The position numbers and the translations under genes were made by a program. From Branchiostoma floridae (lineage: Eukaryota > Chordata > Leptocardii > Amphioxiformes > Branchiostomatidae): a stretch of DNA of 64,000 nt. The stretch covers positions 32,424,044 to 32,488,043 of the forward strand of contig NC_049980.1 of the NCBI RefSeq assembly GCF_000003815.2, in the 5' to 3' direction. Under the pieces are notes generated by a model. It saw only the letters and a program-made list of their open reading frames with translations, did not search any database and was not told where the DNA came from. Shown in pieces: positions 452-38,100 of this stretch. The stretch's first letter is position 1. The number at the start of each line of letters is the position of its first letter.

Positions 452-851
452 GTATACACCTTTCTCACGCGGTGGCCTTGATAGATGGAAGACGAGGTCA
501 ATGAGGCAAACAGACAAAACTTATTTTAAAAATCAGCTCCCATTTAGATTTCCTCCAAACCACACAAATTTTCACAATACACTGTATAATATCAAATAAT
601 GAATATTATAACTAGTGTTATATACCAAAATATGTAGCAATTTAAGGCAACATAGACTGATCCCAAAGTCCCGTAAGAGATGCAAAGTAAAAACATAATA
701 GTGCAAATATTTGACGGACCATTCTTATTGGTCACTTTCCTAATTGCCAGGCTTTCATTGCTTGAACTGCTAATTATGATGGACAGTCTGTTGTTTGACT
801 CATTGAACTCGTTTAGATCTATCATGGCCGCCGCGTGAGAAAGGTGTATAC
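452..851. mobile_element. MITE-like element with ~55-bp terminal inverted repeats
   Basis: The left end (GTATACACCTTTCTCACGCG onward) reappears as its reverse complement at the right end, with similarity running about 55 bp inward on each side (452-510 against 790-851). The interior is AT-rich and has no coding potential. Size (~400 bp) and structure fit a non-autonomous DNA transposon. No target duplication was established. Confidence 0.6.
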
Positions 852-864
852 CCGCACAAACACA

Positions 865-1151
865 CGCGCGCGCGCTCGGGCACACACACACACACAAACA
901 CAAACACATGGCACACACACATACACATACACACACACACACAAACACATACACACACACACACACTCACACACACATGCACACACACACACATGCACAC
1001 ACATACACACACAAACACATGCACACACACATACACACACACACATACACACAAACACACACACGCACACACACATGCACACACACATACGCACACATAC
1101 ACACACACACAAACACACACAAACACACACACAAACACACACACAAACACT
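865..1151. repeat. (CA)n microsatellite with interruptions
   Basis: Nearly 290 bp of CA/ACAC repeat with scattered ACAA, ATAC and GCAC variants, directly beside the right end of the MITE at 452-851. Long open frames here in several reading frames are a by-product of the dinucleotide repeat. Confidence 0.95.
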
Positions 1152-2974
1152 GTCACTTTTACTACTCGAGTGCACTTTTCGAATACAGGAATGAATGCCT
1201 TGTTGGTTGTCATGCCACATTTTGTGACTTGTCTTGCTACAACGTTTATGGTGTTTATTTTGAAAATTTGCCATCTTATTTATTTACCCATCTTTTTTTC
1301 GCCCTATCTCACTATTTTTACAATCTGTAGAGGATGTCACACATAAAATTTACTTGCTATGGCCTAACATGGCCTTCTGGCTTTACCACATTTGTATTGA
1401 CTCAACAAGTGACCATCACCTTTTCAAGACGTCAAACCAGAGCGAGACTATAAGGTACTTAGGTACTCATACCTGGAAGGACATCTACTCTTTTCGATAA
1501 GTGTGGTGGGTTCTTTATCCTGCTCGAGGTGTGGCATTGACATTGAGCACGTGACTTTCGGCTTTACGTCCGGTCCAAACGTCACTATGGCTTAGGTCAC
1601 ATTTCCAAACGGGGGCCCGGCCGGGATGTTTTAAGAAACGAAAAATTAAAACATAGTCCTAGAAATATACACATATCATGTCCATTAATCTTCTTTTGAC
1701 ATTTTGTAGATTTTTATGCCTTTTATATCATTATTTTCGCTCCCGAAAGCTGTCCAGTCGGGCCCCGGTTTGGGAATGTGCCCAACCGAAGCTATATCAC
1801 CTGAGTCTTAAGGGCACAACAATAGGGCCCGTCAGGGACAAAGAAACCCTTAGAAATTTAAGCCACCAGTCCTAGATGTGACACTCTGTCGCGATAAGGT
1901 TAGGCTGGAGACAGGGGTAGGCAGGCACCGAGCCTATCCAGGCCTGCCTTCTGCACGGGTCAGTGTTAAGCGCCGTCAGTTGTAGTTGGGACTGTGGAAA
2001 CCCTCTGGAGGTGATGTCGTCTGAGGTACATCCGACTGCGCCCTGAGAGTGCAGAGCTCCTATCGCCCACCTGACACGGCATGTTGTCTGCGCCGCTAGT
2101 CCACAGCGATACAGTAGCTCGCGCGGTGTTTTTATTTTACCACCACAGATAAGGCCGATCGCATTTCGGAGATGAGATAGCCTTCAGAGGCTGGGCGCAC
2201 TTCGTCTTCCTCAAGTTCCGGACGTGAAAGTTCAAGGACGTGAGTTTAGTTTAGATCTTGCGTGGGTTCCCGGACAAAGAACAGGGCAGCGCTATTCCAT
2301 AATTTTTACCACATAGCATACTAGCAAGGCTCAGGAGCCACTCCTGCGTTTTGGGTTACTCACTTACTGTACTGATTGTGTCGACAGATGTTTTACTTTT
2401 GATTTGAAAACTTGGAAGTGGAACTTTCTCTCGAGCCAAGTGGTGGATTATGGATGAAAAGGGGATAATTTGCTTTCGTGGCTGAAGTGGCAAAACGTAT
2501 CCGTGCAATGAACGTTCGTTGCGGAGGCACGAGAGAGTGAAGTTGCCTATTCCATATTTTCTCGTGTTCAGCTCTAAATCCCCAAAGCGACAAATTTTAA
2601 TCGTTGAAACCATCAGTTCTTCTGCAAAACTAGGGTGTACCTGGAAAACGTTTCTCGGAAAAAGATATTTCTAAAAAAAATCGGTGTGGGGGGGGGGGGG
2701 GGGGGGTCGGCAACAGAACACTAATCAAAGTCCTAAGTAGACACAAACAAGGGTTCCCTAAAACGGTATTAATAGTACATGAATAACCCTGTTGAAAACG
2801 AATCTTCTGGCACGTTTCTATCCTTTGACTTCTCCGGTGGAACGGGGACTCTGGTTTTCCTTCGGTGTTTGAAGGTGCGTTGTGGGGAAAACTTTCTTTA
2901 TGTATTTAGAGTCCCCAGGAAAGGGGCCATCTAACGGATCTTTCTTAACCTGGCCAATATTTCCAACACGGTGA
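1152..2974. other. Unassigned non-coding stretch before the gap
   Basis: No convincing exon was found. At about 1496-1537 there is a dispersed repeat fragment (GTGTGGTGGGTTCTTTA and following) also found at 60556-60597 and, inverted, at 45317-45375 and 24275-24305. A pure G tract lies at about 2687-2706, shortly before the gap, and may have contributed to the assembly break. Confidence 0.5.
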
Positions 2975-3074
2975 NNNNNNNNNNNNNNNNNNNNNNNNNN
3001 NNNNNNNNNNNNNNNNNNNNNNNNNNNNNNNNNNNNNNNNNNNNNNNNNNNNNNNNNNNNNNNNNNNNNNNNNN
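2975..3074. other. Assembly gap (100 N)
   Basis: Exactly 100 Ns, a conventional placeholder for a gap of unknown length. Distances across it should not be trusted. Confidence 0.99.
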
Positions 3075-3181
3075 GTGTGAGAGCATAGCAAGCTAATCAC
3101 TGTCAAATGAAAAATCGAAGTGGCGTACGAAGCACAAGTGCCGGTATAGAGTCTTAATACCCCCTTCTCAACTCACGAATT

Positions 3182-3329
3182 ATTTAGCTCGGCCGAGTTG
3201 TCAGCGAGCTCTAAATTACGAGGAGGTATGACCCTGATGCCGACAAAGAAACTCTGCCATTTCTTTGTAGGCATCAGGTTCATGCCTCCTCGTAATTTAG
3301 AGCTCGCTGGCAACTCGGCCGAGCTAAAT
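3182..3329. repeat. 148-bp near-perfect inverted repeat (foldback)
   Basis: Two arms of about 65 bp, beginning ATTTAGCTCGGCCGAGTTG, pair almost perfectly around a short loop near 3255. The whole unit could fold into one long hairpin. It is probably a small foldback or MITE; no coding sequence is present. Confidence 0.85.
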
Positions 3330-4189: not shown

Positions 4190-7100
4190 TCAGCTTGAGT
4201 GACTCCCTCCACTGTAAGGCAGGTGTTTCAGTTTGATGTCGAGCTGGAGTGCAGCTGCCAATTCCTCCTGTAACAGACTGTGCATGGTGTTGTTGTCATG
4301 GCGATACACCCAACTGCCTCTATCAGGGGAGTAGTCGTACCGCTTGGGCCCACTAGGAAAGGAAAAATCAACAGTTCAGTTCAGTTCATCCTCATATGAG
4401 GTGCCATTAACGATGTCCGACCATGCATCTCTATCTTGCATGGCGGCTAGTAAGTTGTAGTCAACAAAATCAAAAATCAACAATGCCCCATAAAGACTTG
4501 GGTTTCAGCCTGGTAAAATAAGAATGGAAAAAAAAGAAGAGAGACAACAGCATCCAGGGATAGACCCAAATGTTACCACATGAAACAAATAATTAAGGAC
4601 ACCCCTACCTGGTAGGTGAAGACAGCCAGATCTGTCTGTTGGGTGTCTGTTTGTTGATGACGTACGTTCCCAGGTCTCCCCCCAGTCTGAGCGTCAGGAC
4701 ATCTGACTGTCCGAGAACAAGAATAGAGAACAAGAACATCAGGACACACTGACTTATTTCCTTCTGGATAACGTTGAATTGTAATTTCCAACAGAAGAAA
4801 TTGGACTTACCCAAATTTTTGACTGATCGACTCCAGTCTTTATCAAGGAATGAATAATCCACTGCTTCTGTTACATCACGTTCTGTAGATAGCACACGTG
4901 ACTCGGTAAGCAGTGGATCATAATTTACGGAGAGTCTATGGCGTCCTTGGTCCCTGTTTAGTCTATTCCTTGACAAAGACTGGCGTTTATAAGTAAAAAA
5001 TTTGGGTAATTCCAATTTCTTGTGTTGGGAAAATTACAGTTCAACTTTATCCAGACTTTTACCAACACAGATGAACTTTTAAGCTAATTTCTTTCCTTGG
5101 CTATTTTTAGGTGAGAATAAATGAACAATAGGTAATAAATGGACATCATAGAGGAAAACTTGAATATGACTGTGTTAACTCCATAATACTGAGGTATGAA
5201 CCCGAGTAGTCAGTCTATGTTTTTATTATGAATAATATTATCAACATTCTTTGTGCATTTGTGCACAACCAAGCGGTTTCCACCGATGTCCTGGCAATTA
5301 CGTGGGCTTTAAACAATTTTTAGCAGCTCGACCGATGTTAGTGGGTCCCTGGAAGCTGTGCTTAAGTTCAGCGAGAGCTTTTTCTGAGATTTTGGATGTG
5401 TCTGTTGCAAAATTAATATCATTATTTTCAGTGTGCCCGTCCACCCCACACATGCCCTACATATTTCCCACAAGTCCTAAATTAAAGTTGATCCAAATAC
5501 TGGATTTTTACCGGGTTAGTTGATTCTCACTTCGTCCATGTCTAAGAGATGCTACCATCGCATGGTGGATTTATAAATCTTTAGTGTTGGATTTGTGATT
5601 GGGCAGATTTTCAGCGAAAAATACGGTCAACGCTCAGGCGATTTTGGGATTTGGCGATCTCTAGGCATTCTAAAAATTTGACCGGCGTTCGCTTGAATTG
5701 TGACGCAGGCTTAAAGACACTGCTGACTTACGGAGAACTGTACATCGTAGTCAGGTGGGCAGCAGTCCTGGTCCCCCAGGTCCTCTAGATACTCTGCCAG
5801 GCCGTCCAGGGTGTCGTCTGCGATGCGGTGGTACTCATTCAGCGCTATCTGACTGTACAGAGTGACAAGTTGTCATCTTATACAGTGACATAATCAGTTA
5901 TGCATACATAAATTCACACAAATACACACACATATATACTCATCCATTTACTCTCGCTCTCTCTCTTGCACACACCTCTCACTCATTTACTTTCTCTTTC
6001 TTACACACTCTCACTCTCTCTTTCCACCAACACATACATACACCCGCTCTCACGCATGCACGCATGCACATCCGCACGCCCAAGAAGAAGAACAAAACTC
6101 ACCTGTTACTTTGTTGATCACTGCACATCCTCACGTTACATATGGTTCTAAATGTTGCACACTGCTGTAAAACTGGATAGTGCTTCACCGTCTGTAAAAG
6201 GAAACACTTTATTTCATCTCTACACATTGCCACACGACTAATAAAGATCATATATACAACACAATCGTGCTCGTAGGCTTATTGCACCAACATAGACATT
6301 GCAAGTGAATAATAACAAATGGCAGTGTGAATATACAAGACAGTCAATTAAGGTTAAACTTACTGAGTTACTCTCCAAGCAAAGGTTCCGCACCAGCTGT
6401 TTTTGACATGTATCTTTATTTGCTATCTTGGACCATTTCATTCATGGTCACAAGGCCGAACCTCTGCTTGGAGAGTTGGTCTAAGTCTAAGTCCCAGATC
6501 AGACATTTCCATTTGTTTACTTCACCCCAAAGGAGTTAAGTATTGTTTGGGGCTTGTCTGTGTGTACTGTTTGACTGTATATCAATGTCCAGGTAGTCCT
6601 TATGTAGAGGTGGTCACTTGTACAGGTTTGACTGTATATCAATGTCCAGGTAGTCCTTATGTAGAGGTGGTCACTTGTACAGGTTTGACTGTATATCAAT
6701 GGCCAGGTGGTCCTTATGTAGAGGTGGTCACTAGTGCAGGTTTGACTGTATATCAATGGCCAGGTGGTCGTTATGTAGAGGTGGTCACCAGTATAGGTTG
6801 GACTGTATATCAATGGCCAGGTGGTCCTTATGTAGAGGTGGTAACTAGTACAGGTTTGACTGTATATCAATGGCCAGGTGGTCTTTATGTAGAGGTGGTC
6901 ACTAGTGCAGGTATGACTGTATATCAATGGCCAGGTGGTCCTTATGTAGAGGTGGTCACTTGTACAGGTTTGACTGTATATCAATGGCCAGGTGGTCCTT
7001 ATGTAGAGATGGTCACTTGTACAGGTTTGACTGTATATCAATGGCCAGGTGGTCTTTATGTAGAGGTGGTCACTAGTGCAGGTATGACTGTATATCAATG

Positions 7101-7559
7101 GCCAGGTGGTCCTTATGTAGAGGTGGTCACTTGTACAGGTTTGACTGTATATCAATGGCCAGGTGGGCTTTATGTAGAGGTGGACACTAAGACAGGTTTG
7201 ACTGTATATCAATGGCCAGGTGGTCCTTATGTAGAGGTGGTCACTTGTACAGGTTTGACTGTATATCAATGGCCAGGTGGTCTTTATGTAGAGGTGGACA
7301 CTAAGACAGGTTTGACTGTATATCAACGACCAGGTGGTCCTTATGGTCCTTTCAGGTTCGGCTATAATTGTGCTGATTTTACCGTATAGTATGTATATAC
7401 GACATAATTATGGCGTGAAAAACTAGCTTCGTACAACATCGACACGCCCCCCTCCCCCCAAAACAGACGAACCGAACATAGCGTTTCCCTGTTTCCTACC
7501 AGTGGAAGTCTGTAAACGCGTCTGACTTGACAGCAGCGCCGCAGAACGTGGCGCATCAT
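4190..7559 (-). CDS. FXN: Frataxin, mitochondrial iron-sulfur cluster assembly protein
   Basis: Predicted exons in transcript order: 7500-7559, 6103-6191, 5732-5852, 4609-4706, 4190-4352. All junctions have GT/AG borders and compatible phases, giving 176 residues (human 210). The conserved core is clear: an acidic helix ([14 protein letters not shown], ~62-75), the sheet [18 protein letters not shown] (~96-113), IWLSSP with the conserved Trp (~116-121), and GPKRYDY...WVYRHD (~124-142), then a C-terminal helix. Exon 1 encodes an Arg-rich leader ([20 protein letters not shown]) suited to mitochondrial import. In the family, frataxin activates the NFS1-ISCU cysteine desulfurase complex in the matrix. 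The last three exons are near certain; exons 1 and 2 rest on splice sites, phase and leader character. Intron 1 contains a 57-bp minisatellite and a MITE, and a giant foldback element begins ~90 bp upstream of the start codon. Confidence 0.93.
5853..6102 (-). other. Frataxin intron 2
   Basis: Contains a CT/CA-rich low-complexity stretch at about 5925-6065. The open frame seen there on the plus strand is a product of this composition, not a gene. Confidence 0.6.
6369..6477. mobile_element. Short MITE, CTCCAAGCAGAGG family
   Basis: Inverted ends TACTCTCCAAGCA(A/G)AGGTTC about 110 bp apart, inside frataxin intron 1. The same termini bound the copies at 25553-25762 and 55698-55887, so this is one dispersed family. 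The last of those copies has a clear direct repeat (GGTACTCA) on both sides. Confidence 0.7.
6571..7347. repeat. 57-bp minisatellite in frataxin intron 1 (~13.6 units)
   Basis: About 13.6 tandem copies of a 57-bp unit (CAGGTTTGACTGTATATCAA, then GGCCAGGTGGTCCTTATGTA, then GAGGTGGTCACTTGTA). Because 57 is a multiple of three, one frame per strand stays open and yields a false protein with 19-residue repeats. The unit closely matches the right terminus of the DNA element at 38971-39522, including its GACTG-TA end, so the array appears to have grown from a transposon end. Confidence 0.95.
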
Positions 7560-7737
7560 CGTCCCAGGAACTCTTGACAAGGCGGACATGTTTCCTACAG
7601 AGACTATTATTCTATTTCCAAACATCACCGAAGAGTTCACGCCGGTTAGGGTTACGGGAGCATGTAATGTTCCCATTTATGTAAATAAGGTAAGTTTTTA
7701 CATATATTAAATATATTATAACGCATTACATGATGGA

Positions 7738-10465
7738 CAAGGGAGAAAGCGGGAGAACCAAGGAGAAAGCGGGAGAACCAAGTAGAAAGCGGCGGAACAT
7801 GGGAGAAAGCAGTAGAACCTGGGAGAAAGCGGGAGAACCTAGTAGAAAGCGGGAGAACCTGGGAGAAAGCGGTAGAACCTGGAAGAAAGCGGGAGAACCT
7901 GGTAGAAAGCGGTAGAACATGGTAGAAAGCGGCAGAACCTGGGAGAAAGCGGTAGAACCTGGGAGAAAGCGGGAGAACCTGGGAGAAAGCGGTAGAACCT
8001 GGGAGAAAGCAGGAGAACCTGGGAGAAGGCGGGAGAACCTGGGAGAAAGCGGTAGAACCTGGCAGAAAGAGGTAGAACCTGGGGGAAAGCGGTAGAACCT
8101 GGGAGAAAGCAGGAGAACCTGGGAGAAGGTGGGAGAACCTGGGAGAAAGCGGTAGAACCTGGGAGAAAGCGGGAGAACCTGGTAGAAGGCGGGAGAACCT
8201 GGGAGAAAGTGGTAGAACCTGGGAGAAAGCAGGAGAACCTGGTAAAAAGCGGTAGAACCTGGGAGAAAGCAGGAGAACCTGGTAAAAAGCGGCAGAACCT
8301 GGGAGAAAGCGGTAGAACCTGGTAGAAAGCGGGAGAACCTGAGAGAAAGCAAGAGAACCTGGGAGAACCTGGTAGAAAGTGGTAGAACCTGGTAGAAAGC
8401 AGGAGAACCTGGGAGAAAGCGGGAGAACCTGGGAGAAAGCGGGAGAACCTGGGAGAAAGCGGGAGAACCTGGGAGAAAGCGGGAGAACCTGGGAGAAACT
8501 AGTAGAACCTGGTAGAAAGCAGGAGAACCTGGGAGAAAGCGGTAGAACCTGGGAGAAAGCGGGAGAACCTGGGAGAAAGCGGGAGAACCTGGGAGAAAGC
8601 AGTTAAACCTGGTAGAAAGTGGGAGAACCTGAGAGAAAGTGGGAGAACCTGGCAGAAAGTGGGAGAACCTGGCAGAAAGAGGTAGAACCTGGGAGAAAGC
8701 GGTAGAACCTGGGAGAAAGCAGGAGAACCTGGGAGAAGGCGGGAGAACCTGGGAGAAAGCGGGAGAACCTGGGAGAAAGCGGGAGAACCTGGTAGAAGGC
8801 GGGAGAACCTGGGAGAAAGCGGGAGAACCTAGGAGAAAGCAGGAGAACCTGGGAGAAAATGGGAGAACCTGGGAGAAAGCGGTAGAACCTGGGAGAAAGC
8901 AGGAGAACCTGGGAAAAAGCGGTAGAACCTGGGAGAAAGCGGTAGAACCTGGGAGAAAGCGGGAGAACCTGGTAGATGGCGGGAGACCCTGGGAGAAAGT
9001 GGTAGTACCTGGGAGAAAGCAGGAGAACCTGGTAGAAAGCGGTAGATCCTGTGAGAAAGCAGGAGAACCTGGTAAAAAGCGTGCAGAACCTGGGAGAAAG
9101 CTGGTAGAATCCTGGTAGAAAGACGGGAGAACTTGAGAGAAAGCAAGAGAACCTGGGAGAACCTGGTAGAAAGTGGTAGAACCTGGTAGAAAGCAGGAGA
9201 ACCTGGGAGAAAGTCGGGAGAATCCTGGGAGAAACGCGGGAGAATCCTGGGAGAAAAGCGGGAGAATCCTGGGAGAAACTGGTAGAACCTGGTAGAAAGC
9301 GGGAGAACCTGGGAGAAAGCGGTAGAACCTGGGAGAAAGTGGGAGAACCTGGGAGAAAGCGGGAGAACCTGGGAGAAAGCAGTAGAACCTGGTAGAAAGT
9401 GGGAGAACCTGGGAGAAAGTGGGAGAACCTGGCAGAAAGTGGGAGAACCTGGCAGAAAGAGGTAGAACCTGGGAGAAAGCGGTAGAACCTGGGAGAAAGC
9501 AGGAGAACCTGGGAGAAGGCGGGAGAACCTGGGAGAAAGCGGGAGAACCTGGGAGAAAGCGGGAGAACCTGGTAGAAGGCGGGAGAACCTGGGAGAAAGC
9601 GGGAGAACCTGGTAGAAGGCGGGAGAACCTGGGAGAAAGCGGTAGAACCTAGGAGAAAGCAGGAGAACCTGGGAGAAAATGGGAGAACCTGGGAGAAAGC
9701 GGTAGAACCTGGGAGAAAGCGGGAGAACCTGGGAGAATGCGGTAGAACCTGGGAGAAAGCGGGAGAACCTGGTAGAAGGCGGGAGAACCTGGGAGAAAGC
9801 GGTAGAACCTGGGAGAAAACAGCAGAACCTGGGAGAAAGCGGTAGAATCTGGGAGAACGCAGAAGAACCTGGTAGAAAGCGGGAGAACCTGGAAGAAAGT
9901 GGTAGAACCTGGTAGAAGGTAGGAGAACCTGGTAGAAAGCGGGAGAACCTGGGAGAAAGCGGTAGAACCTGGGAGAAAGCTGGAGAACCTGGTAGAAAGC
10001 GGGAGAACCTGGGAGAACCTGGTAGAAAGCGGGAGAACCTGGGAGAAAGTGGTAGAACCTGGTAGAAGGTAGGAGAACCTGGTAGGACGCAGTAGAACCT
10101 GGGAGAAAGTGGGAGAACCTGGGAGAACGTGGGAGAACCTGGTAGAAACTGGGAGAACCTGGGAGAACCTGGTAGAAAGCGGGAGAACCTGGTAGGAAGC
10201 AGTAGAATCTGGGAGAAAGCAGGAGAACCTGGGAGAAAGTGGTAGAACCTGGTAGAAGGTAGGAGAACCTGGTAGAAAGTGGGAGAACCTGGTAGAAAGT
10301 GGGAGAACCTGGTAGAAAGCGGGAGAACCTGGTAGGAAGCAGTGGAATCTGGGAGAAAGCAGGAGAACCTGGTAGAAAGCGGGAGAACCTGGGAGAAAGC
10401 GGGAGAACCTGGGAGAAAGCGGGAGAACCTGGGAGAAAGCAGTAGAATCTGGGAGAAACTCAAAT
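7738..10465 (+). repeat. 20-bp minisatellite array, left arm (~136 units)
   Basis: Tandem units with consensus GGGAGAACCTGGGAGAAAGC and G/T, C/T and A/G variants. The unit is two related 10-bp halves (GGGAGAACCT and GGGAGAAAGC). The segment at 8641-8820 recurs identically 780 bp later at 9421-9600, showing higher-order duplication. Because 20-bp units cycle through all three frames and rarely contain stops, open frames of several hundred codons arise without being genes. Confidence 0.97.
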
Positions 10466-10659
10466 TTCCTTGGGAACGCAAAAATCAGTTACTGTACAAA
10501 ATTCCGTGTTTCATCCAGACGACAGCTCTGTGCATTAACTTGGGTTCTTCACGATTTTATTCAGCATGTTGATGAAAAAAAACATGGCTCACGTTTGCAT
10601 AATGAGACCATTTAAAATCCATCCGACTTTACAGCACATCCGAAGTTAACGTTACAGCA
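10466..10659. other. Spacer between left array and LINE remnant
   Basis: About 190 bp of unique-looking sequence with no recognisable feature. Confidence 0.4.
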
Positions 10660-12117
10660 GCCCATGTTAAAGTATCTAGTCTATTTTATGCAGACGACCT
10701 CGTCCTGTTATCAACATTAGACAACAAGCCAACATGGTCTACAAAAAGCAATCAACACCCTTGACCTTTACTGCGAAAAATGGAAATTATAACAAAAATA
10801 ATAGTATTTGATAAAAACGGACACATGTCCTCTAACTTCAAATTTCAATTGCGCAACCAAAACATAGATATAGTATCGTCGTACTGTTACTACCTAGGAG
10901 TAATGTTTACTACAGGTGTTGGGCTTAATGACAAGTCCCCATTAGAAAAAGTACACTTAAAATTCTGTAAATCGATACTGGGCGTAAGCAACCTCGCCAC
11001 AAGGGCGGAACTAGGCGGATAACCAGTGTGGATTGAAGTGTACAATAGAATGTATTCATATTACAAAAGATTAGTAAGAGAAATACCGAAAGATAGCTTG
11101 CAATACGAACTTGAAACTTGAAACTTTATTAGAATAACCATTAGCGGTGGACCCTAGGGTCCACCGCTAGTCTTCCTGGTATTCATTCACAGAGACAATA
11201 CATTATACAAACATGGTTGGCAACTAGACAAGTCACAAACACATCTAAATCAATAACATATTTACAATATACATAATTTAAAAATTGACAATCCTGTCGC
11301 ACAGTGCTTGTAACTACTGGTGGAAGTATTTGTGCAAACCATCCTTAAACACTCTCAGGGATTGTGTGGATTGCATGACAATTGGAAGGTTTAAATACGA
11401 AGCCTTCTTAGTACAACAAGACCTGCACCGATGTAAGATACCTAGTTGGTTTTGGAATATTAGTAGAATCCTTCAGGAGTCTGGCTTTGCCTACCTAAGT
11501 TCTGCTTCAAGAAGAACGAAACACATTATCTGCTCAATCTGAACTTAAGGAAAGTCTAAAAGACAACTTTCTTCAATATTTTTTCTCAGAATTGAAATCT
11601 TGCGGTAAGAGAATCAAGGAAACTAGCTAAAAACTTACAGAAGAATTAAGCATACATATGAGCGAGAAAAACCGCCGAGCCATGACTAAACTAAGAATTA
11701 GCGACCATTCGCTACAAATTGAAGTTGGTAGAGACAACCAGACTCCTCCAAACGGCAGAATATGTACATTTTGCAACGATAGATGTGTAGAGAATGAAGT
11801 ACATATACTTTTAGAATGCCCACTATACACCGAGATGCGCAAATCTCTCATAAATACACTACAACTAGATAATGAATATGTGTGTTTAAGCAAGGACGAA
11901 ATGTATAACTACATTATGTCGACTAATTAATACGACACACTTGAAAAGATCTGTAAATTTGTTTGCACAAGTTTCAAAAAGAGAGAAGAGACTCTGTAGA
12001 TTTTAGATGATATAAGATGTAACCTGTTTCACGTATACTCAAGTTATCCAACTCAATGCATTTAGCCCATGTTGGGCAGGAATATGCAATAAAGATCATT
12101 GTCATTGTTATTGTTAA
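10660..12117 (+). mobile_element. Degraded LINE (non-LTR retrotransposon) 3' part
   Basis: Near 10680 one frame reads LFYADDLVLLS, the reverse-transcriptase catalytic YADD motif. Further frames give YLGVMFT...VHLKFCKSILGVSNL (~10895-10995), and at 11760-11830 the C-terminal Cys/His segment CTFCNDRCVENEVHILLECP. These are standard in CR1/L2-like LINEs. Frame changes and stops show it is dead. It ends with a short hairpin, GCAATAAAG and an ATTGTT-rich tail at ~12060-12117. It lies between the two inverted 20-bp arrays. The clade is not certain. Confidence 0.8.
11108..11290 (-). mobile_element. Insertion within the LINE: reversed retroelement tail
   Basis: Read on the minus strand, a 26-bp perfect hairpin (AGCGGTGGACCC TA GGGTCC...) is followed by TCTAATAAAGTTTC, the same hairpin-then-AATAAA layout as the LINE tails elsewhere in this window. 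LINE-like coding resumes beyond it at ~11300, so it is a nested insertion. Confidence 0.55.
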
Positions 12118-12779
12118 TTACTATCGTGATACTCATACCCTAACATAAATCTATAACCTGCACGTTTTGTGGGTTTTCTCAAGAATGACTCTCCTGCACC
12201 TGCAGTAATTATATAATTTGATGCGTGGAATGATTAAGCAAAAATTTCGTGGGGTAAGAGTTTGAAAAAAATGTGCCCACTGTTGGCTTTGGGAATGTCA
12301 TAATAACTTCATGTAACTTTATGTATAGTATGTTGCTGGTGCTTGCTATAGCACTCGTAAACGTGCTGTGCACGCACTAGGCCTAGGTAGAGACTGTGTG
12401 CGAGTATCAAATTGAATTTAATGTCTGCATATGACCATTCTCCACATTGTGTTTTTGTTGTTTACTTTGCTGGCTGCCTTGGAAACTACAAACTACAAAG
12501 CATTTTCCAAGGTCATTTCACGCTATCATGCAACCTCAATTTAAATTAGTTTTGTTTTATGACATTCTCTTGTTTCGATTGAGGTTGGCTAGACTGATTA
12601 GACTAATTAGCATTGTGGCTTGAATTTTCCAACCAAATGTAACTGATCAGTCAGACTGCTTGAAAGCCAGATGACACTACTCAGCCTAAAATTCCAAATG
12701 GTCATTACTGTCCTGAATTCAACTAATGAATGAATTAAATGTGTAATGTACCATATTAAATGATTTTTAAAACAGGTCA
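12118..12779. other. Unassigned AT-rich stretch inside the foldback element
   Basis: About 660 bp between the LINE tail and the right 20-bp array. I see no coding sequence or clear repeat. Confidence 0.4.
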
Positions 12780-14300
12780 CAGTTCGTTCTCCCAGGTTCT
12801 CCTGCTTTCTCCCAGCTTCTGCCACTTTCTCATAGGTTCTCCTACCTTCTACCAGATTCTACCGCTTTCTCCTAGGTTCTACTGCTTTCTCCCAGGTTCT
12901 GCCGCTTTCTCCCAGGTTCACTTTTTTCTTCCAGGTTCTACCGATTTCTCCCAGGTTTTTCGCTTTCTCCCATGTTCTCCCGCTTTCTCCCAGGTTCTGC
13001 CGCTTTCTCCCAGGTTCTCCTGCTTTCTATCAGGTTCTACCGCTTTCTACTGGGTTCTACCGCTTTCTCCCAGGTTCTCCGTCTTTCTCCCAGGTTCTTC
13101 TGCTTTCTACCAGGTTCTACCGCTTTCTCCCAGGTTCTCCTGCTTTCTCCCAGGTTCTGCCGCTTTCTTCCAGGTTCTCCCAGGTTCTCCCGCTTTCTCC
13201 CAGGTTCTACCGCTTTCTACTGGGTTCTACCGCTTTCTCCCAGGTTCTCCCAGGTTCTGCCGCTTTCTCCCAGGTTCTCCCAGGTTCTCCGTCTTTCTCC
13301 CAGGTTCTCCTGCTTTCTACCAGGTTCTCCTGCTTTCTCCCAGGTTCTCTGTCTTTCTCCCAGGTTCTCCCGCTTTCTCCCAGGTTCTCCCGTTTTCACC
13401 CAGGTTCTCCCGCTTTCTACCAGGTTCTACCGCTTTCTCCCAGGTTCTCCTGCTTTCTCCCAGGTTCTCCCGCTTTCTACCAGGTTCTACCGCTTTCTAC
13501 TGGGTTCTCCCAGGTTCTCCCGCTTTCTCACAGGTTCTACTGCTTTCTACCAGGTTCTCCTGCTTTCTCCAAGGTTCTACTACTTTCTCACAGGTTCTGC
13601 CGCTTTCTCCCAGGTTCTCCCGCTTTCTCCCAGGTTCTACCGCTTTCTCCCAGCTTTTACTGCTTTCTCCCAGGTTCTCCCGCTTTCTCCCAGGTTTTCC
13701 CGCTTTCTCCCAGGTTCTGCCGCTTTCTTCCAGGTTCTCCCAGGTTCTCCCGCTTTCTCCCTGGTTCTCCTGCTTTCTCCCATGTTCTCCTGCTTTCTAC
13801 CAGGTTCTGACGGTTTCTCCCAGGTTCTCCCGCTTTCTCCCAGGTTCTTCTGCTTTCTACCAGGTTCTACTAGTTTCTCCCAGGTTCTCCCGCTTTCTCC
13901 CAGGTTTTACTGCTTTCTCCCAGGTTCTCCCGCTTTCTCCCAGGTTCTCCCGCTTTCTACCGGGTTCTCCCAGGTTCTCCCGCTTTCACCCAGGTTCTGC
14001 CGCTTTCTCCTAGGTTCTACCGCTTTCTACCGGGTTTTCCCAGGTTCTCCTGCTTTCTCCCAGGTTCTCCCGCTTTCACCCAGTTTCCACCGCTTTCTCC
14101 CAGGTTCTACCGCTTTCTACCGGGTTCTCCCAGGTTGTCCCGCTTTCTCCCAGGTTCTGCCGCTTTCTCCCAGGTTCTGCCGGTTTCTCCCAGGTTCTCC
14201 CGCTTTCTACCGGGTTCTACCGCTTTTTTCCAGGTTCTGCAAGGTTCTCCCGCTTTCTCCCAGGTTCTACTGCTTTCTCCCAGGTTCTCCTGTATTTTCC
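12780..14300 (-). repeat. 20-bp minisatellite array, right arm (~76 units), inverted
   Basis: This is the reverse complement of the unit in the left arm (AGGTTCTCCCGCTTTCTCCC on the plus strand), with extra 10-bp half-units inserted in several places. The two arrays could pair over more than a kilobase. The open frames here are again periodicity artefacts. Confidence 0.97.
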
Positions 14301-14398
14301 CGATTAACACTACCATTAAAATTATTTGAATAACCTTGCACAAATGTATCCTAATTTACATAAAAGGGAACATTACTTGCTCCCCTAACCCCGGTTGG

Positions 14399-15270
14399 TA
14401 CATAATCACCATATTCACACTTCCCATAATGCACCGTAAGGAACCTACCGTAAACCGGGCGTACAATGTCCGTCACTTTTACGACACCTTTTCTCAGCGC
14501 GCGAAGCCAGCTGAAATAGAGTCAGACTCCATAGCGTATGTTAAACACGGTGGTAGAAATTAGCGAGACAGACTGAATAATTTGCCAGGAGTTGTAGGGC
14601 ATAGAAGTTGATTTTGCAACCTATGTTGCACTAGCGATCACTAAAAAAAACTGTAATCCTTGGCCGGCTTAAGTCCTCAGTCTATTTGGTCAATTCCTAC
14701 TACTCAATGATTTAACAGTAAGTCTACGATTTCTTCTATTTTAACGGTCTGCACCATCTAAAACATTGAGTAGGTAGCAATGACGAGCGAGCTCGCCTGC
14801 ACCGAAAAAGAATTGAAAACTTAAATTCATCGCTGATTTATTTGGTGGTATTATGATTAGTGCCGGTACTAGTATGATAATGGATGTTACTGATTCCGTT
14901 CATTCATGCGTTCATTCATTCATTCATTCATTCATTCGTTCGTTCATTCATTCATTCATTCATTCATTTTTTCTTTCTTTCATTCATTCATTCCATCACC
15001 CGGTCAATCATCCGCGAGCATCATTATTCTGTTATTCAATAACATGATTGAAAACACGAAGCCAAACATTTCGGTTCAATGTTTATTGATTTCCTACCAT
15101 TGGTTTACATCTCCCATGCTCAGTAGTCCAGCTACAAGCAAGTCGTCTCCAGTCAGTCTGTCAACTGGTTTCACAACGATTTCAACTGTTCTCATTTTCA
15201 CGTCATCTTTCCTGCACTCTCGTCGCTAGGGGGCGCAGCTGACAGGTATGAATTTGCTACTCTCTGTTCG
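14399..15270. other. Unassigned spacer with (CATT)n microsatellite
   Basis: No gene is recognised. A tetranucleotide CATT/ATTC repeat occupies about 14903-14990 and creates an artificial open frame. Confidence 0.6.
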
Positions 15271-35100: not shown

Positions 35101-38100
35101 TCATCCAGAACGGGAAGGAGGAGGGGGCTCAGCTCGGGTGCGGAGGCGGTCGCCATGGTGACAAGGGGTACTTCGTCCAGCCCACCGTGTTCTACGATGT
35201 CCAGGACAACATGAGGATTGCCAAGGAAGAGGTTTGTTTGTTTGTTTGTTTGTTTGTTTGTTTGTTTGTTTGCCAGCCCACCGTGTTCTACGATGTCCAG
35301 GACAACATGAGGATCGCCAAGGAAGAGGTTTGTTTATTTGTTTTTTTGTTTGTTTGTTTGTTTGTTCGTAATTTCCAAGAAGATCCACAATTGATTGATT
35401 GGTTGATTGAATGATTGATTAAATCTAATAAACATGATTAAGTAAATGCAATGCTATGCATCTCAACAAAACCGTACCAAGTAAATTTGGGGTCAATATA
35501 CTTCTGTAGAAGGGAAGCTTTTAATTTCAAGACGTCCTCAATAACTCTAAAATTTGTTTCTTCACCATGTAGATCTTTGGACCAGTGCAGAGCATCATCA
35601 AGTTCAAGTCCATCGATGAGGCCATTGACCGTGCCAACAACACGACATACGGCCTGGCGGCCGGTGTGTTCACTAAGGACATCGACAAGGCCCTGACTAT
35701 CGCCAACAGTGTGCAGGCTGGGTCTGTCTGGTGAGGGCATGTCTTATGCATACATACTCCCATAGAGTTGTAGCATTAAGAACGATCTGCTTCTGGTACC
35801 TGGAACACAATAACGATACAAGTGTTCTGGGCCGAGTGATCATTTGCTGTATTCAATGGTGCCTAAGCATTTGCATAAATTTTATGAAATTAGTACGAAT
35901 TTCATAACATCACTATGCAAACTTGTACAAATTTTATTTGAAAGGCACAACTCTTATGTGACATGCCCAAACCTTATTCCTGCATTGCACATAATATTTA
36001 TTAAGTAATTGGTGAGTACATTTATGTAATACTTTATTTCTGTAACAAGAATCTGAATACAAAGTGCATAAGAGATAGTAGGCATCAAGATCATGTACAT
36101 GACTAGCTAGAGTGAAATTTTTCAAAATTTTTTCCTAGATCCTACTGCATATTAATTCATAGTCAGGATAAACCTGTTCTGCAACTAGATGTCTTTTGCA
36201 TATCAATTCACAGTTTTATTTATTTATTGGTTTGGCTGCACCGAACACACAGCCAGGGCTGCCCAACTAGCCTATGGCCCTGCTGACAAACACATAAACA
36301 ATACAAATTAAAAAAAAGAACATTTGTATGTACATGGTGTAGGATAACTTACATATCATCTAAAATGGAGTATATAACATCATATCATCGACAACAATAT
36401 TTGCAATGAGAGGTCAGGGTCTGTATATACATGTGTATGACTAATTTACCATGCGTAAGGGTTGCCTAGACATTCCCACAGTTAGGATATAAAAACTCTC
36501 CAACAAGATTTCTAAGGTGTCACTGATGAAAGACACCGGATGGCTGTCTGAAACGTCTGACCGTTTCCAAAACCATATCCAGTTGCTTAAGTAATTCCTT
36601 TTTGGGGTATAATATTACCTGGATGTCTAACCTACATCGACGAATCGCATAGTGGAACTCAATGCCACCAAGCACTGTAGGCCTTGTTATGTAGCTTTAA
36701 TTAAACAACACTAAGATCTAAGATGTGCAAAGGTTAGGTGTGACATATCATTCAGTGTAACATAACGAGCTGTGCCATATCTTCAGTTCCGTTTATTTGT
36801 TTACACCAATGTTACAGTACAATTTAAAACATAGTGAGTAAATAACCTCTCGCAGGCTGAATTGCATGTCAGCCTTTGTGTTAAAACAAATTGTTCTTTA
36901 TTCTTTATTTATCTGCACATAGCAACATGGCTTAAAAACAAATGTATACACATAATTGAAATACAAATGTATATACAGAATTGAAGAAATGTACATACAA
37001 AATTGCTCCATCAGTTAAGACATTAGAAATATTAAAAAGACATTCAAACATAACATTATATACAGCATATACAGAACCACACTTTGCAATCACATATACA
37101 TTGAAAAGCTGGGTGAGCTATAGTATACTTGAGCTTCTGTCACACGGTGTGCTTGTGAAGTTGGTTTGTCCTGTCCTACAGAATCTGCAGATACAGAAAT
37201 TGCAAGTTGTTACAAAGCTAGTATCTACATGTAGTAGATGTAGTTTTCTTCTTTTTTTCTTTTACTTGCACCAAATACTATAGGGTGAGTATGACAATGG
37301 GTAACATCAATTCTCATAATTCCACCAGGTGCCATATTATACGGTAGCGCCACATGCAGAAAATACAATTGAATTAAGGATGACATCTGTAGTGCCTTAC
37401 TTGTAAATGTAACATAGTCTGTATTTTTTCACACAGGGTGAATTGTTATGACCCGGGAACACTTCAAGCTCCTTTTGGAGGCTTCAAGATGTCGGGCCAC
37501 GGACGAGAGCTGTGAGTGTTTCTTTATTTGTTTATTACCTTCACCCAGAAGGGTTTTTGGGTGCCGTGTGTGTGTGTGTGTGTGTGTGTGAGTGTGTTTA
37601 TGTACGTGTGTCTGTGTGTGTATGAGTGACTAAGTGTGTGTTTTGATGAGTGTGTGTGTTTGTGTGCGTGCTTGTGTATGTGTGTGTGTACAGTCAAACC
37701 TGTCTATAGCGGGCACTCAAGGGACTGGTCAAAATTGGCCACTATAGAGAGGTGGCCACTATAGAGAATATGCTAATTAATTGACCACAAGCAATAAGTT
37801 ACACATGGTTTTAGTACCCACTGATCTTTATTCACATAATACAGTACTGTACATGTACTGCAATGATTTACACTATATGTATTAAGAAAACAAAAGCTAT
37901 AAAAAGTTTTAAATGTTCTACAGTTGATATTGTCTGAAGAGACCGGTATCGTCATATTTCTTTGATCTTTCGTCTTGTATCCTTTGATACTTCGCCGTCC
38001 GTGTGTTCCCTCCCGCGTTCACACGTCAGGTTCGCCCATTATGCTAATGTGGTACTCACAAGAAAAGTCTCGTCACTTTAGACTTATCTCTTAATAAATG

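Follow-up and report, generated by a model that had tools for sequence, protein, structure and literature searches.

A foldback-type element with inverted 20-bp arrays, very probably one of a small family of non-autonomous transposons in the Florida lancelet

Foldback systems and the lancelet element

As a structural class, foldback elements consist of a loop between long inverted arms that contain tandem repeats, and their copies, dispersed over different sites, have their ends in common. Among deuterostomes, the sea urchin foldback element TU has short tandem repeats in its outer arms, 8-bp duplications and modular middles. Both features of the class were found for an element at positions 7650-14390 of a 64,000-nucleotide stretch of Branchiostoma floridae DNA (C2:32424044-32488043 of the 513,431,437-base genome; hereafter the window), and a second example of the arms lies at another locus, L021. 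Likened to TU by description, not sequence, the element has units of 20 bp where TU has 15 bp. We consider it very probably one copy of a DNA transposon of foldback type, non-autonomous and belonging to a small family, because its tips recur in the genome, arrays lie inside the tips at four loci, L021 and a copy on a different contig (L026) share tip and array, and the loops of the two-armed copies are dissimilar.

Tetris, a foldback element of Drosophila virilis, resembles the lancelet element in its outer tip, its inverted tandem repeats of variable number, its variable non-coding middle, the 8-9 bp duplications of three complete copies, a transposase that was not found, and a short, end-sharing relative, DAIBAM, which is a miniature inverted-repeat transposable element (MITE) (PMC4079207). 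Compared by description and not by sequence, Tetris differs in having units of ~220 bp and an outer domain of up to 866 bp; the same paper mentions a sea urchin foldback element (PMC4079207). The Drosophila FB elements likewise have inverted ends and a middle region, and their inner blocks, variable in number, consist of short tandem repeats in opposing orientations (PMC7642927). However, FB has ends of 467-479 bp, repeats of 27-31 bp in blocks of five and a 9-bp duplication (PMC7642927), whereas the lancelet element has a 42-bp tip, 20-bp units and an 8-bp duplication register. An earlier reading of the window from its letters alone (the original prediction) had called the element a giant foldback-type transposon with a layout parallel to that of FB; the parallel stands for the layout and fails for the lengths of duplication, end and repeat, and "giant" was overstated. 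The element belongs to the foldback kind, a known structural type, and not to the Drosophila FB family itself.

Galileo, of the P superfamily, is similar in its ~40-bp terminal segment, conserved between families, and in tandem repeats further in, which were shown by binding tests to hold sites bound by the THAP domain of its transposase; it differs in having terminal inverted repeats of >1 kb and known coding relatives (PMC3688188). Tm1, a Mutator/foldback system of root-knot nematodes, has inverted ends that are composite and vary in length, includes non-autonomous and MITE-like members and makes 8-10 bp duplications, but these are mostly 9 bp and some copies encode a putative Mutator-like transposase (PMC3169594). 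Mutator-like elements (MULEs) make duplications of 8-11 bp, a range that takes in the 8 bp found here; the paper reporting this could not detect MULE transposase in the Florida lancelet (PMC6446971). Merlin elements start with 5'-GG at the tip, make 8-9 bp duplications and, in several families, have internal tandem repeats (PMC8101967). No paper on a Branchiostoma element of this type was found, by titles and abstract openings, among those listed by one open-access library, and neither foldback nor minisatellite occurs in a paper on amphioxus transposons (PMC5802833).

Tips, target sites and dispersed copies

The element and its flanks comprise the following features.

7642-7649, + strand: left target-site duplication CCGGTTAG, 7/8 match to 14391-14398
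7650-7690, + strand: left tip, terminal inverted repeat of type 1, beginning GGTTACGGGAGCATG; 38/42 against the right tip when counted from 7649; core recurs at other loci
7691-7740, + strand: left AT-rich spacer from tip to array; similarity to the right spacer undetected
7741-10458, + strand: left arm, 135.4 copies of the 20-bp unit GGGAGAAAGCGGGAGAACCT, including a ~540-nt stretch that occurs again ~780 nt along
10459-12786, no strand: loop, with a piece read as a decayed non-long-terminal-repeat (non-LTR) retrotransposon; transposase domain not found
12787-14290, - strand: right arm, 78.8 copies of the 20-bp unit GGGAGAAAGCGGGAGAACCT, inverted
14291-14349, - strand: right array edge (to ~14300) and spacer; outer spacer resembles the ends at L021 and L022
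14350-14390, - strand: right tip, beginning GGTTAGGGGAGCAAG
14391-14398, + strand: right target-site duplication CCGGTTGG, 7/8 match to CCGGTTAG

The inverted tips (7649-7690 and 14350-14391) are 42 bp long with 38 identical positions, in agreement with the predicted terminal sequence of ~41 bp, and a third copy was not found in the window at <=3 mismatches (0 expected from shuffles). Base 7649/14391 is common to tip and duplication. The base before the tip is G at both window tips, the L021 left tip and L026, and T, T, A and T at the L021 right tip, L022, L023 and L024, respectively; because this base varies among copies, the element is placed at 7650-14390.

The 8-bp near-identical direct repeat that had been noted outside the tips, CCGGTTAG at 7642-7649 and CCGGTTGG at 14391-14398, agrees at 7/8 positions. 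Among random pairs of places in the window, the chance of finding, no more than 3 bases from the tips, an 8-mer with <=1 mismatch was 0.0038 and that of an equally good score at any length of 4-11 was 0.012, with the best score over these lengths falling at 8. These statistics are good, not overwhelming alone. A second, independent 8-bp near-duplication (7/8) was found at L023, where CAAAGTAA and TAAAGTAA flank a miniature copy.

The tip core (31 bases, <=3 mismatches) had 13 matches in 513 Mb, the window's two included, and the reversed pattern had 0. The exact tip pattern also had 0 matches in viral contigs, a result that is uninformative. Queries with the left and right ends gave 7 and 5 genome matches, each including itself. 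The 13 tips are distributed two each in the window, L021 and L025 and one each in L022, L023, L024, L026, L027, L028 and L029, and five of them adjoin a full 20-bp array (both ends of the window copy, both ends of L021 and one end of L026). L021 is a second inverted pair, 5.9 kb long and 4.03 Mb from the window copy, with tips at 1603 (+) and 7508 (-) and arrays of the window's 20-bp unit inside each in the same inward orientation (43 and 17.8 units with an assembly gap between them in one arm, 102 units in the other). In L026 (contig C16), a tip at 524 is followed by 129.8 units at 665-3245 and then by a 5.4-kb assembly gap, beyond which the sequence is not array.

The search from the array side led to the same loci. 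A two-unit array pattern (<=3 mismatches) had 251 genome matches and its control 0; the window, L021 and L026 account for 99 of the 100 matches listed and for all 76 of these that have <=1 mismatch. The one outlier, C1:4167634, lies at L045, a decayed, one-armed copy that carries a tip at 581 (26/27 letters and one inserted base, with the remainder of the tip gone) and arrays that start at 1011, 430 bp after the tip; its second tip was not found within the 7 kb taken. A tip was thus on the outer side of the array at 4/4 array loci among the matches listed (window, L021, L026 and L045). Other loci with the same tips beside 20-bp arrays had been set beforehand as the test of the original prediction, and L021, L026 and L045 are such loci.

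The strongest evidence that tip and array belong together is the comparison of L021 with L026, which are on different contigs and are 89.0% alike over 1011 nt of tip and array. Because this similarity begins one base outside both tips, tip and array move together, and the array appears to lie inside the mobile unit. The loops of L021 and the window gave no blastn match at E 1e-4. These comparisons bear on whether the window holds two independent minisatellites, or one inverted minisatellite, lying by chance between MITE-like tips. Such a coincidence would accord with the 8/13 tips that have no full 20-bp array, and the array loci are known from 100 matches listed of 251; yet each of the four array loci among those matches has a tip on the array's outer side, and the likeness of L021 to L026 runs inward from the tip. 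We therefore disfavour chance minisatellites as very unlikely, and the dispersed copies of tip and array support a single insertion, as had been proposed, over two independent satellites.

The six ends that could be aligned are not a uniform set. Two of the four positions at which the window tips mismatch split all six into the same two types, with the window left, L021 right and L022 ends in one group and the window right, L021 left and L026 ends in the other, so the ends look differentiated by family and not simply decayed. The right end of the window copy, taken as the tip with ~30 nt of its spacer, matches one L021 end at 88% over 73 nt and L022 at 82%; the left spacer has diverged or been replaced.

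Several copies are shorter or carry other sequence. L022 has a tip, a partly homologous spacer and about four degenerate half-units, a stub that fits variable array length. L023 (521-610) is a 90-bp miniature inverted-repeat element whose far tip agrees with the consensus at 23/32 positions. In L027 (482-4193), a tandem array of 22 copies of 157 bp starts ~200 bp after the tip, and the following 19 kb did not yield the far end. A duplication search for the far ends of L022, L024, L025, L026, L027 and L028 gave none that was convincing; no tip at <=13/37 mismatches was present in another 9.9 kb past L024 and L027, in 2.1 kb past L025 or in 6 kb before L022. Inverted 203-nt arms, 99% alike, with a 42-bp tandem repeat were observed at L028 (7595-8227), ~7 kb from the tip-like sequence. 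Because tips precede about four degenerate half-units in L022, up to 135 units elsewhere and an unrelated 157-bp array in L027, tips might repeatedly seed tandem arrays a short distance inside, with transposition or repair itself creating minisatellites at a constant position irrespective of the sequence there; we regard this as unlikely.

A number of observations weigh against a mobile foldback family. A full 20-bp array is missing at eight of the 13 tips; among these, L022 has the stub only, L027 has its 157-bp array, and at the rest Tandem Repeats Finder (TRF) detected no array of the 20-bp unit. Complete two-armed copies number only two, the window and L021. The 8-mers flanking L021, CATGTGAT and CCCGAGAT, agree at 5/8 only, which age of the copy or rebuilding by recombination could explain. 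L021 and the window are 82% alike over 2254 nt in an alignment that extends 17-18 nt beyond the tips, an overrun taken as chance extension. The array matches are 100 listed of 251, which leaves room for tipless array loci. Similarity of the unit to the tip is weak (79/500 and 25/500 shuffles as good), a six-frame Pfam scan of the loop gave no match (a scan insensitive to decayed genes, which also missed the reverse-transcriptase piece), and 9.3 kb of L022 yielded no transposase.

Composition and origin of the arrays

The predicted arrays, inverted and facing each other, were confirmed at 135 and 79 units. As the prediction also had it, the 20-bp unit is built from a 10-bp half: two halves, A (GGGAGAAAGC) and B (GGGAGAACCT), differ in their last three bases only and alternate almost strictly. 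The left arm has 130 A and 141 B and the right arm 72 A and 80 B; in a non-overlapping count, BB occurs 8 times in the left and 10 times in the right, and AA 0 times and once, respectively. The arms are ~76% purine on one strand. G-quadruplex-like stretches number 7 in the left arm (mean 1.97 and maximum 5 in 200 single-base shuffles) and 3 in the right arm (a count without shuffle comparison).

Among 888 inverted pairs, the longest 25 ungapped pairings of the arms span 1188-1326 nt and are 70-78% complementary, and the first listed is 1287 nt long with 78% complementarity. This level of complementarity, the unequal length of the arms and the similar architecture at L021 make a false inverted duplication by the assembler most improbable. 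The assembly does show irregularities: a ~540-nt stretch of the left arm recurs near-identically ~780 nt further on, 10 single-base insertions cluster within ~190 bp (~9081-9270) of the left array relative to the near-identical upstream stretch, and there are gaps in L021 and L026. The ten insertions are probable base-calling or assembly errors and, because they cluster in the second copy, the ~540-nt repeat is either a recent local duplication or an assembly fault. For the same reason the exact assembled length of the array is untrustworthy, and an assembly artefact may affect array length alone.

There were 58 types of half-unit in the left arm and 46 in the right. Because 15 types are common to both, five of them at least 2 edits from the consensus, both arms probably draw on one pool of variants. 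In the order of their units the two arms show weak collinearity at most (1/60 phase-keeping shuffles as good, and 16/500 in a second test). No 60-base word is common to both arms. The two ~50-bp spacers of the window have no detectable similarity (144/1000 and 262/1000 shuffles as good), so a single inverted repeat running unbroken through both arms is not demonstrated. Just inside the arrays, inverted homology gave no clear signal in a 300-nt test (180/300 shuffles as good), and an 80-nt test gave a 12-base match (44/1000 shuffles as good).

These comparisons are pertinent to a variant of the foldback-family reading that is not exclusive of it, namely that a transposon with 42-bp tips has unrelated subterminal regions, each with the same inward-facing binding motif, which were amplified separately, and that the foldback geometry is a by-product. 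The undetected likeness of the window spacers, the weakly collinear unit order and the absence of a common 60-base word favour separate amplification, whereas the homology that some spacers do show, the window right one with those of L021 and L022, and the 15 shared half-unit types, five of them at least 2 edits from the consensus, oppose it. We entertain it tentatively, as a possibility somewhat short of even. An origin of the 20-bp unit from the tip was also considered and found weak (79/500 and 25/500 shuffles as good).

In the proposed family, a transposase encoded elsewhere would recognise the tips, excise the element and make a cut staggered by 8 bp on insertion. Amplification of a subterminal motif would have given the arrays, which, by analogy with Galileo, possibly provide extra transposase-binding sites one helical turn apart. 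Arrays may lengthen and shorten independently in each arm by slippage or unequal exchange, and the loop may be passively replaced by other repeats.

Loop, transposase and meaning of the family

Five pieces of the loop gave no Pfam match over the curated cut-off; zf-RVT was sub-threshold (E 0.046). One piece contains a YADD motif, which we take to mark a non-LTR reverse transcriptase, and is read as a decayed non-LTR retrotransposon. The loop also contains a perfect 28-nt palindrome (11142-11169), presumably within an apparent second, reverse-oriented retroelement fragment as judged by its tail motif. Rfam gave 0 matches in 7300-14800. The element is apparently non-coding.

A GG start and an 8-bp duplication were found for the window element and for L023, and suit Merlin or Mutator; Galileo makes a duplication of 7 bp. 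Five of the 13 tips start other than with GG (L025 twice, L027, L028 and L029). The Merlin domain DDE_Tnp_IS1595 was not found in the loop by the insensitive scan. The genome has three matches to Merlin-type transposase in open frames, at L042 2548-3498 (C6) and at L043 (C245), and none of the three places has a convincing match to the element tips (best 15-17/37 mismatches). The same scan of the loop gave no Pfam match to a THAP-type transposase (P transposases were not searched genome-wide) and, in six frames, none to a MULE transposase (MULE and hAT were not searched genome-wide).

Elsewhere in the window, a 57-bp tandem repeat of 13.6 copies (6569-7345) ends ~300 bp left of the element. 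Five of eight scanned frames match families, namely leucine-rich repeat, seven-transmembrane (7TM) receptor (two frames), aldehyde dehydrogenase and inositol monophosphatase, and an aldehyde dehydrogenase coding piece is present as a 96-bp tandem duplication with GTTT repeats (35177-35366).

The element is likely a chordate example of the foldback kind, and its relatives within the one genome comprise a 90-bp miniature, an end with a short array and array-bearing copies. Such a family lends itself to the questions whether transposase binds the arm repeats, by what means arrays grow and whether minisatellites are seeded by foldback elements.

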